The position numbers and the translations under genes are program-made. From an uncultured SAR116 cluster alpha proteobacterium (GTDB lineage: Bacteria > Pseudomonadota > Alphaproteobacteria > Puniceispirillales > Marisalimonadaceae), in NCBI GenBank assembly GCA_902616615.1, contig CACMTN010000004.1:49543-113542 (forward strand): a stretch of DNA of 64,000 nucleotides, written 5' to 3'. Of this stretch, positions 41,229 to 44,254 are shown piece after piece. The notes beneath the pieces are model-generated. The model had not been told where the DNA came from. It ran no database searches and saw only the letters and a program-made list of their open reading frames with translations. How positions within the stretch are numbered: the first letter of the stretch is position 1; each line of letters starts with the position of its first letter.

Positions 41229-41756
41229 TTATTTGATAGTAGCATCTTTATCTAAAGGTTTGAATTTCTTTTTCCATCTAATTTTTTGCTTACTAATGTA
41301 TTTAAGGTATAGTTCTTCTTTTTTTCCATATTCAAAACCAGCCGTTTTATTTAAAAAATAACCACCTTCTATTGGAATATTTATGTATGAATACTCTTCT
41401 TTTTCTCGTTCTCCTTTAGTAATTAGATGAGTTTTTTCATTTTCGTCAATTATTTTCCAAAAATCTTTTATATCAAACTTACGATCAAGTATTTTTTTTA
41501 ACGTTTCACTAAATGTAATTGGTTGATATCTTATAAATCTTTTGTTTGCTCTCTTGAATTTAGTTACCTTTTTAAAATCATTTTTTTTATATTCCTCAAA
41601 ACATTGTTTTGAAATACTTGTTATTCTCATTAGACAATATTCACCAGAAAATAGAGCTTTAAGTAATATTTTTTTTTTTTCTATTGAAAAATTACTATCA
41701 AAAATTTGTGAATATACTTTGTAAAATTCTTCAGATTTATAATTCCAAAATCGCAT
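41229..41756 (-). CDS. Hypothetical protein
   Basis: 175 aa ORF, lysine-rich; family not recognised. Confidence 0.5.
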   Translation of the reverse strand: MRFWNYKSEEFYKVYSQIFDSNFSIEKKKILLKALFSGEYCLMRITSISKQCFEEYKKNDFKKVTKFKRANKRFIRYQPITFSETLKKILDRKFDIKDFWKIIDENEKTHLITKGEREKEEYSYINIPIEGGYFLNKTAGFEYGKKEELYLKYISKQKIRWKKKFKPLDKDATIK

Positions 41757-41966
41757 ATTTTGATGTCAAAAATTAAAATATCTAGTTAAATAAATAAAAA
41801 TTAATATTTAAAATATAACGTTTGAGATTTTATGCAACTTAGTTATTAATTTTAACTAATTATTCTCTAAACAATAAAATTTAAATATAATTATGCCTAT
41901 TAAACAGTTATTCCCACTCAACTTAATATGGCATATAAGTCATTGATAATAATAGTTTTTATTTTT

Positions 41967-41987
41967 ACTTGGTAACTACTTGGTAAC
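41967..41987 (+). repeat. Tandem ACTTGGTAAC repeat, inverted copy of 42467-42487
   Basis: ACTTGGTAACTACTTGGTAAC; exact reverse complement at 42467-42487. Confidence 0.9.
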
Positions 41988-42028
41988 TTTATAATTTTAA
42001 TAAAGGTCACTATTTTCAATTTAACTAA

Positions 42029-42424
42029 TCAACTACAGACACTTTCTAAAAGTTTTCCACTTACTGATTTAGGAGGAGGATAATTCCATTCTGGGTTTTT
42101 GGGATTTATAACGTCACCAATCCCCCCACCCATAGGTTCACTATGAAAGGAAAAACTCAAAAACTTAAACCGAAATAATTTACAATCACCTTGTTTATAA
42201 TATTTGCTAGAAAAACGCCCGTTTCTAGTTGGTTTCAAATAATTAGTCAAACCCCAAAAATAAACATAACCATCAACTTTTCTTATTTGTTCAAAATCTA
42301 TGAAGAAGATATCTCCACTATTCATACTGTCACCACCTTTAACCACTTCTGTCCATTTAGCAAAACTAGTGGATAAGAACATTACGGTGAATATGAATGT
42401 GAATATGGTGAGTAGAGATTTCAT
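42029..42424 (-). CDS. Small secreted protein, possibly surface-adhesin protein E-like
   Basis: Signal peptide MKSLLTIFTFIFTVMFLSTSFA; FFIDFEQIRKVDGYVYFWGLTNYL and C-terminal cysteine pattern. Confidence 0.6.
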   Translation of the reverse strand: MKSLLTIFTFIFTVMFLSTSFAKWTEVVKGGDSMNSGDIFFIDFEQIRKVDGYVYFWGLTNYLKPTRNGRFSSKYYKQGDCKLFRFKFLSFSFHSEPMGGGIGDVINPKNPEWNYPPPKSVSGKLLESVCS

Positions 42425-42466
42425 AATTTAAATGTATCAATAATAAATAATTTTGAAAGCAGAATT

Positions 42467-42497
42467 GTTACCAAGTAGTTACCAAGTGCTTGGTAAC
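42467..42497. repeat. GTTACCAAGT tandem plus inverted copy (palindrome 42478-42497)
   Basis: GTTACCAAGTAGTTACCAAGTGCTTGGTAAC; another ACTTGGTAAC at 42583-42592. Confidence 0.9.
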
Positions 42498-42691
42498 AAA
42501 ATAAAGTACTTTACCCTTTACCATGCTTCAAATGATATTCAAATATATCATTCTTCTCAATCGCCTACCTAGTTGGTAGCAAACTTGGTAACTATAAAAA
42601 TTAAGTCATTGTTTTTATTGAATATTATTTTTGAGTTTTTCACTTTTGAAAAAGTTAAGTTATTGATTTTATTGACTTTTATTTTTTAAAA

Positions 42692-44254
42692 TTATTCCCA
42701 TTCTATGGTTCCAGGAGGTTTAGAAGTTATATCATAAGTAACTCTGTTGATGCCTTTAACATTATTAATTATTGCTGTTGCAGTTTCACTTAAAAATTCA
42801 TGTGTAAACGGATAATAATCTGCAGTCATGCCATCTAATGATGTAACGGCCCTTAATGCACATACATAATCATATGTTCTTGTATCACCCATCACTCCAA
42901 CAGTTTTAACTGGTAAAATTACTGTAAATGCTTGCCATATTTTATTGTATAGTCCATGTTTTTTTATTTGTTGGATATAAATTGAGTCTGCATTTCTTAA
43001 AATATTTAATTTTTCATCCGTAATTTCACCTGGACATCTTATTGCTAAGCCTGGCCCAGGAAAAGGATGTCTCTCTAAAAAATCATTTGGTATGCCAAGT
43101 TCTTTTCCCAAAAGCCTGACTTCATCTTTGAATAATTCTCTGAGGGGTTCAATTAAATCTAAGTTCATTTTTTTTGGTAACCCTCCGACATTATGATGTG
43201 ATTTTATAGTTGCAGACGGACCTCCAGAAAAACTTACACTTTCTATAACATCAGGGTATAGCGTTCCTTGAGCAAGAAAGTTAACATCACCAATCTCTAA
43301 AGCATGTTTTTCAAATATCTGAATAAATAACTTACCAATTATTTTACGCTTTTTTTCTGGATTTTTTATTCCCTTTAAGTTTGATAGGAAAAGATTCTTT
43401 TCATTTACCTCTATTAAATTTAATTCATAGTGTTTTTTATATAAGTTTAAAATCTTTTCGCTTTCATTTTTTCTCATTAAACCATTATTTACGTAAATAC
43501 ACGTTAATTGATTACCAATAGCTTTATTTATAAGTATTGCTGTTACTGAACTATCTACGCCACCAGATAATGCACAAATTACTTTATTATTTCCTACTTT
43601 CTTTTTGATTTCTTCTACAGATTGATGGAGAAAAGATTGCATACTCCAATTGAAAGAAAAATTTGATAATTTAAGAAAATTCTTGATTAACACTTTGCCA
43701 TTTAATGTATGAATAACCTCTGGATGAAACTGAACTCCATAAAAATGTTTTTTTTCATTTCCAATAATTGCAAAAGGTGCATTTTCAGAAATACCGTATA
43801 CCTCAAAATCTCTAGGTATTGTTGCTACATGATCACCGTGAGACATCCAAACTTCTTCTTTCCCTTCATTTAAAAACAAACCTTTGAGAAATTTAATATC
43901 TTTACTTTTGTTATTTATATTTACAAGAGATTTTCCAAATTCTGATGTACCAGACCCAGATATAACTGATCCGCCTAGCATTTGCATCATTATTTGTTGT
44001 CCATAACAAATTCCCAAAATAGGAACACCTAAATCGTAAATAGTTAAGGGCGGCTTAGGAGCGTTATCATTAAAAACACTTGCTGGCCCTCCAGAGAGAA
44101 TAATTGCTTTAGGATTAAATTTTTGTAAAAAATCATCATCTACCTTATTAAAAGGATGTATTTCACAATAAACATTTAACTCCCTTAAACGTCTTGCGAT
44201 TAACTGAGTGACTTGGCTACCAAAATCAATAATTAAAACAATTTCGTTTTCCAT
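42692..44254 (-). CDS. guaA: GMP synthase (glutamine-hydrolysing)
   Basis: [50 protein letters not shown]; ends GTIEWE. Confidence 0.98.

Follow-up and report, generated by a model that had tools for sequence, protein, structure and literature searches.

The decamer repeats next to guaA are very probably the arm-type sites of a guaA-specific, lambda-type tyrosine integrase, carried on a 784-bp non-autonomous cassette in which an Adhesin_E gene stands where autonomous relatives have the integrase gene. The comparison with related genomes establishes the duplication of the att core, the conserved spacing between arms and core, the homology of left ends which lead into guaA integrase genes, the concerted change of the arm sequences and the spread of comparable cassettes. 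In this explanation, the cassette would be moved by an integrase acting in trans.

The window, that is, the whole stretch of 64,000 nucleotides that was analysed, contains the array between positions 41967 and 42592. The decamer ACTTGGTAAC occurs there five times exactly, on the plus strand at 41967, 41978 and 42583 and on the minus strand at 42467 and 42478, and once with one mismatch, as GCTTGGTAAC on the plus strand at 42488. All six sites of the original prediction were recovered where it had placed them, and a direct comparison of the 21-mers at 41967-41987 and 42467-42487 bore out its statement that they are perfect (100%) reverse complements. Its list lacked a further arm-type unit (GCTACCAACT, 42571-42580), the duplicate of the guaA core (41908-41922 / 42692-42706) and three CAATRACTTA boxes, all of which are present. 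A hairpin predicted in the array derives from the inverted arm units.

Decamer sites with one mismatch number 10 in the whole window, against a shuffle mean of 3.6 and a largest shuffle value of 8. The genome of the window is a draft (1.73 Mb, 63 contigs, 75% complete), in which six exact copies were counted, five of them inside the 626-bp array; the sixth, G000:C38:231-240, is located in apparent coding sequence, and the scan of this draft gave no second cluster. The decamer, whose abundance elsewhere had been named as a point against arm-type sites, is therefore not common outside the array. It is a local cluster and no genome-wide motif, because the reversed-pattern control reached a similar total (7 genome matches versus 6).

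The insert measures 784 bp from core to core and is located at the 3′ end of guaA, and its cores are direct repeats of the guaA end. The conserved flank (orf175, ogt) starts beyond the second core; window positions 41229-41756 encode a 175-aa protein, which borders the hotspot on the right as a conserved flank in 18 genomes of the genus. The only open reading frame of the insert is the Adhesin_E gene, with neither an integrase nor a regulator gene inside it, and the 64-kb window holds no tRNA gene. The features, read along guaA, are as follows.

42692-42706, minus strand: att core at the guaA 3′ end, ATAGAATGGGAATAA, left boundary; from the core scan, position common to all guaA loci compared
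42656-42665, minus strand: box CAATAACTTA, conserved at the corresponding place of G063, G042 and G004
42602-42611, minus strand: second box CAATGACTTA; from the repeat search (repeat D1/D2) and alignment with relatives
42583-42592, minus strand: arm-type unit GTTACCAAGT, first unit of the outer left pair; aligns with GTTTCCAAGA of G063 and G042
42571-42580, minus strand: arm-type unit GCTACCAACT, second unit of the outer left pair; aligns with CTTTCCAACT of G063
42547-42561, minus strand: core-like sequence ATTGAGAAGAATGAT inside the left end; aligns with ATTGAAAAGAAC (G063) and ATTGAATACAAC (G042)
42488-42497, minus strand: arm-type unit GTTACCAAGC of the inner left cluster; aligns with GTTTCCAACC of G063
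42478-42487, plus strand: arm-type unit of the inner left cluster, reading GTTACCAAGT on the plus strand; from the repeat search and alignment with relatives
42467-42476, plus strand: arm-type unit of the inner left cluster, reading GTTACCAAGT on the plus strand; its counterpart in G063 and G042 abuts the int ATG
42029-42424, minus strand: cargo gene for a 131-aa predicted secreted protein of the Adhesin_E family (PF16747, E 1.6e-16)
41978-41987, minus strand: arm-type unit GTTACCAAGT, first unit of the right-end pair, 65 bp from the core start
41967-41976, minus strand: arm-type unit GTTACCAAGT, second unit of the right-end pair, 11 bp on from the first
41936-41945, minus strand: right-end box CAATGACTTA; from the motif scan and comparison with relatives
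41908-41922, minus strand: att core GTTGAGTGGGAATAA, the second copy, bounding the insert on its right side; from the core scan and comparison with relatives

The left end of the insert contains TTTTAAAAAATAAAAGTCAATAAAATC, and the right end contains GTTACCAAGTAGTTACCAAGT followed by GAGTGGGAAT. Read on the minus strand, the outer left pair is GTTACCAAGT-TT-GCTACCAACT (42592-42571), the inner left cluster GTTACCAAGC-ACTTGGTAAC-T-ACTTGGTAAC (42497-42467) and the right-end pair GTTACCAAGT-A-GTTACCAAGT (41987-41967). The core-like ATTGAGAAGAATGAT might have been a degenerate att core belonging to another insert; this was rejected, since the alignment with G063 and G042 identifies it as a part of the left end that keeps its position throughout this class of elements. 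Homologues of the cargo protein are found near tRNA genes in four relatives (G001, G041, G038, G018), so the Adhesin_E family looks like recurrent island cargo; in G038 the homologue has a tRNA-Val copy on either side, the two copies being separated by 14 kb.

The left end of the insert has counterparts in elements with an integrase. In G063 and G042, the stretch from the core to the int ATG aligns with the window nearly without gaps, and the boxes, the outer arm pair, the core-like sequence and the inner cluster occupy equal positions in all three. Over 227 bp, the ungapped matches amount to 122 for G063 (z 9.7), 96 for G042 (z 4.6) and 139 for the integrase-less G004 (z 12.5), with the z scores computed against dinucleotide shuffles. 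The inner arm cluster leads directly into the int ATG in G063 and G042, and the Adhesin_E gene stands at that place in the window. Judged by this alignment, the left end of the window's insert is the left end of an integrase element without the integrase. The arm units changed in concert, as all units of the window carry A where the G063 set carries T (GTTACC versus GTTTCC). When the left and right arm sets of eight elements (units chosen by eye) were paired, the match within elements was the best, better than the other 40,319 of 40,320 pairings. G063 and G042 have an arm pair at +64 of which the window and G004 show only a decayed form, so the present mobility of the window's element is uncertain and it may now be immobile.

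The guaA 3′ end proved to be an insertion hotspot in the SAR116 order, to which the window belongs. The region is hypervariable among relatives and not syntenic; stability and synteny would have contradicted the original prediction. The interval between guaA and orf175 in members of the genus ranges from about 0.1 kb (G016) through 0.4-1.8 kb to 7.4 kb (G023) and 22 kb (G013). G016 represents the empty site and G022 a clean 622-bp insertion, the matching filled site, and most inserts at guaA close with one more core copy. When the 110 bp ahead of each of 25 downstream cores were scanned for their best period-11 repeat, it was located 62-67 bp upstream of the core in 23 cases (65 in the window); random segments of the same DNA satisfy this spacing in 12% of cases and in 0.9% when a repeat of at least 8/10 identity is demanded. 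The inserts share ancestry and are not fully independent, so that the quoted probabilities overstate their independence, and the assemblies are drafts. The two exceptions, G082 and G098, have their best period-11 repeat about 77 bp from the core.

The sequence of the repeat differs between groups of inserts, which can be described as arm dialects. GTTTCAAAGT occurs in G001, G013, G017, G022, G035, G038 and G051, GTTACAAAGT at the left ends of G023, G032 and G083, GTTTCCAAGT in G042, G063 and the left end of G004, CTTACAAAGT in G018, G061 and G107, GTTAGAAAGT in G003 and G024, and GATTCAAACT in G014, which also has a remnant of the window's GTTACCAAGT. Geometry that is kept while the arm sequence drifts is as would be expected for protein-docking sites. 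Searching for the 21-mer with up to two mismatches led to relatives in which the arrays are mostly guaA-linked. Direct repeats of the target core bound the insert and repeats lie at a fixed distance outside the core, two of the properties expected of an arm-type att region of a lambda-type tyrosine integrase. The proposal of arm-type sites near att in a guaA-adjacent insertion is supported by the core repeats, by 11-bp-phased pairs that recur in relatives with equal spacing to the core and by a layout which in G063 and G042 leads into a guaA integrase. Sequence by itself is enough to recognise the pattern, in which a core repeat is accompanied by a period-11 pair at a distance of about 64 bp.

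Candidates for the protein that reads these sites are tyrosine integrases encoded directly behind guaA, for example about 0.3 kb after it in G032 and G023. A profile of seven such proteins, run against 136 genomes of the order, yielded 13 guaA-linked integrases, and all 13 close relatives are located directly downstream of guaA. They comprise every match above 147 bits together with one fragment (G097, 112 bits); the remaining matches stay below 147 bits, none of them beside guaA and two beside tRNA genes. The AlphaFold model of the integrase (mean pLDDT 78) has the tyrosine-recombinase fold, matches the solved structures of XerH, Tn1549 Int and Cre, with a best E of 6e-7, and contains an N-terminal unit of three strands plus a helix before the helical core-binding domain. 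By analogy with lambda-type integrases, this unit may be the arm-binding domain; in Pfam, the protein has weak matches to DUF6538 and Phage_int_SAM and no match to a curated arm domain. A cognate integrase with the additional N-terminal unit is found beside the same arrays in G063, G042, G023, G032, G051, G061 and others, not for the window's own dialect. The expected neighbourhood of arrays and an integrase gene is therefore seen at guaA in relatives and not in the window, whose insert has no integrase of its own. The window's genome, which is 75% complete, yielded no integrase of the guaA family. An integrase with the GTTACCAAGT dialect was found neither there nor in the 136 genomes of the order, where GTTACCAAGTNGTTACCAAGT with one mismatch retrieved only the window's own copies.

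Several observations concern the integrase elements themselves. The autonomous element spans about 7.25 kb from core to core in G023 and G083 and carries the integrase, several small genes and differing cargo, with a serine resolvase in G023 and G032. Viral relatives of the element (G023, G032, G083) were not found; viral contigs contained neither an integrase relative nor the 21-mer, phage records contained no integrase relative, and plasmid records gave only matches of 23-26% identity to the integrase. Decaying guaA integrases occur in G059, which lacks the N-terminal part, and in G013 and G107, which have in-frame stops. The int start codon of G063 and G042 directly adjoins the innermost arms, which suggests that the integrase represses its own gene.

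Integrase-less cassettes have moved. A GNAT-acetyltransferase cassette of 622 bp, without an integrase, has a 607-bp body that is 98.0-99.3% identical and gapless in four species of two genera (G013, G017 and G022 of one genus, G083 of another), and the guaA ends of these hosts are only 69.6-86.4% identical. It stands alone in G022 and in tandem behind an integrase element in G083. The cassette of G018 recurs in G107, from another family of the order, with 89.5% identity versus 65% for guaA, and precedes a decayed integrase there. G038 and G044 share two one-gene cassettes (64-aa and 114-aa ORFs) in different order. By these sequence comparisons, integrase-less cassettes at guaA have spread horizontally, at least one of them between genera. 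One arm pair appears to be enough for a cassette, because several travelling cassettes have the right-end pair alone. Among the genomes compared, the Adhesin_E cassette is seen in one only.

In the proposed mechanism, the integrase of an autonomous guaA element would bind the cores and arms of the cassette and move it in trans. The C-terminal domains would most likely occupy the cores and the N-terminal domain the phased arm pairs, whose units, one helical turn apart, would place two protomers on one face of the DNA. An intasome would be assembled on the cassette ends and then recombine with guaA, the cassette contributing DNA sites only, and the matching arm sequence would decide which integrase uses which cassette. 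The arms next to int in G063 and G042 may have regulation of this gene as a second role; in KplE1, IntS acts from attL as a repressor of its own gene (PMC2951348).

The alternative that survives best accepts the arm-type identity and differs in the history of the insert. It describes a dead remnant, an att region left from an autonomous guaA island after deletion of the integrase, never mobilised as a cassette and not mobile now. We consider this possible, if somewhat doubtful: the left end homologous to integrase elements, the missing integrase, the decayed arm pair, the decayed integrases of G013, G107 and G059 and the lack of an identical copy of the insert elsewhere all agree with it, but the five perfect decamers and the perfect 21-bp pair, with both array ends exact, point to selection or recent age, and other integrase-less cassettes at guaA clearly crossed genera.

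It is improbable that the decamers serve as operators through which a transcriptional regulator, or the integrase as repressor, controls the Adhesin_E gene. Phased inverted sites do lie upstream of that gene, and the innermost sites next to the int ATG in G063 and G042, with IntS of KplE1 as a parallel, would suit such a role. The gene, however, has such sites on its downstream side too, where their spacing from the att core is fixed; this geometry adjoins many unrelated cargo genes at guaA inserts, and the insert has no regulator gene. Still less credible is an invertible element, or the MITE-like one that the original prediction had kept as an option, defined by the perfect 21-bp inverted repeats on both sides of the gene. 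These repeats lie inward of the att cores, and the boundaries themselves are formed by direct repeats of the guaA end; the element occupies a single locus in the genome, and the arrays of relatives track the att core, not the gene. The inverted pair was accordingly rejected as a transposon terminus, being the right-end arm pair facing the innermost left arm pair. Chance or a simple local duplication without function, conceivable for short units in AT-rich intergenic DNA, has practically no probability, as the genome background rate makes five copies in 626 bp a matter of about 1e-15 per window by Poisson statistics and the conserved spacing of independent inserts already refutes it.

Returning to the reading as arm-type sites, there is an even chance that it extends to the whole order, with guaA serving as an integron-like platform of lambda-type integrases and one-gene cassettes with their own att and arm ends, in which dialects are matched to integrases, tandem cassettes are shuffled and passage in trans crosses genera; the window would represent the GTTACCAAGT dialect, with an integrase not yet seen. 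How single genes are swapped in streamlined ocean bacteria is largely open. If the proposal is true, integrase-less cassettes of 0.3-1.8 kb would offer a traceable route of single-gene transfer with lock-and-key arm dialects, and a natural data set on how integrase N-terminal domains read arm sequences. Relative to known guaA systems, new features would be how small the cassettes are, the dialects of their arms and their shuffling; within the incomplete coverage of our literature search, guaA islands and CIMEs were found and no description of one-gene guaA cassettes with arm dialects.

Several known systems can be compared with these cassettes. Tycheposons, described as 4-200 kb elements at tRNA genes, share the streamlined marine hosts, the tyrosine recombinase and the cargo genes (PMC10872708); the insert of the window was rejected as one of them, as it is 784 bp long, lies at guaA and has no recombinase, with no tRNA gene in the window. 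Integron cassettes and CALINs (PMC11389934) are likewise one-gene, integrase-less, shuffled and served by a tyrosine recombinase in trans, but they use attC, whereas the guaA cassettes have the guaA target with the core GAGTGGGA and double-stranded arm-type pairs. This class was also rejected for the window: by inspection, GTTACCA has C where the attC motif GTTRRRY / RYYYAAC needs R, the boundaries are guaA-core repeats, and no IntI was noticed.

CIMEs are closer, being att-flanked, without a recombination gene and occurring either singly or as tandem neighbours of full islands at a single target gene, and the insert of the window has attL and attR and no integration or transfer genes. Origin by loss of the recombination module would agree with a left end homologous to integrase elements; for accretion beside a neighbouring element, the window has no neighbour, and tandem arrangements are found in G083 and G107. 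The integrase-less ssrA islands of Dehalococcoides, an example of CIMEs (PMC3146451), depend on serine recombinases, whereas the guaA cassettes would be served by a lambda-type tyrosine integrase with arm sites, are very small and pass singly between genera. A precedent for the proposed mechanism is GIsul2, whose integrase acts on the guaA core GAGTGGGA and mobilises the CR2-sul2 unit as well (PMC9376610). Both systems combine a tyrosine integrase at this 3′-end core with a neighbouring integrase-less unit mobilised between att sites; they are set side by side by target site, not by integrase sequence, and GIsul2/CR2-sul2 is a multi-gene system of about 15 kb in gammaproteobacteria, whereas the guaA cassettes of SAR116-related alphaproteobacteria are one-gene units that measure 0.3-1.8 kb and show phased arm pairs and dialects. 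By analogy, the cassette of the window would function as a satellite of guaA integrases that brings its own att sites, with CIMEs and GIsul2/CR2-sul2 as near equivalents.
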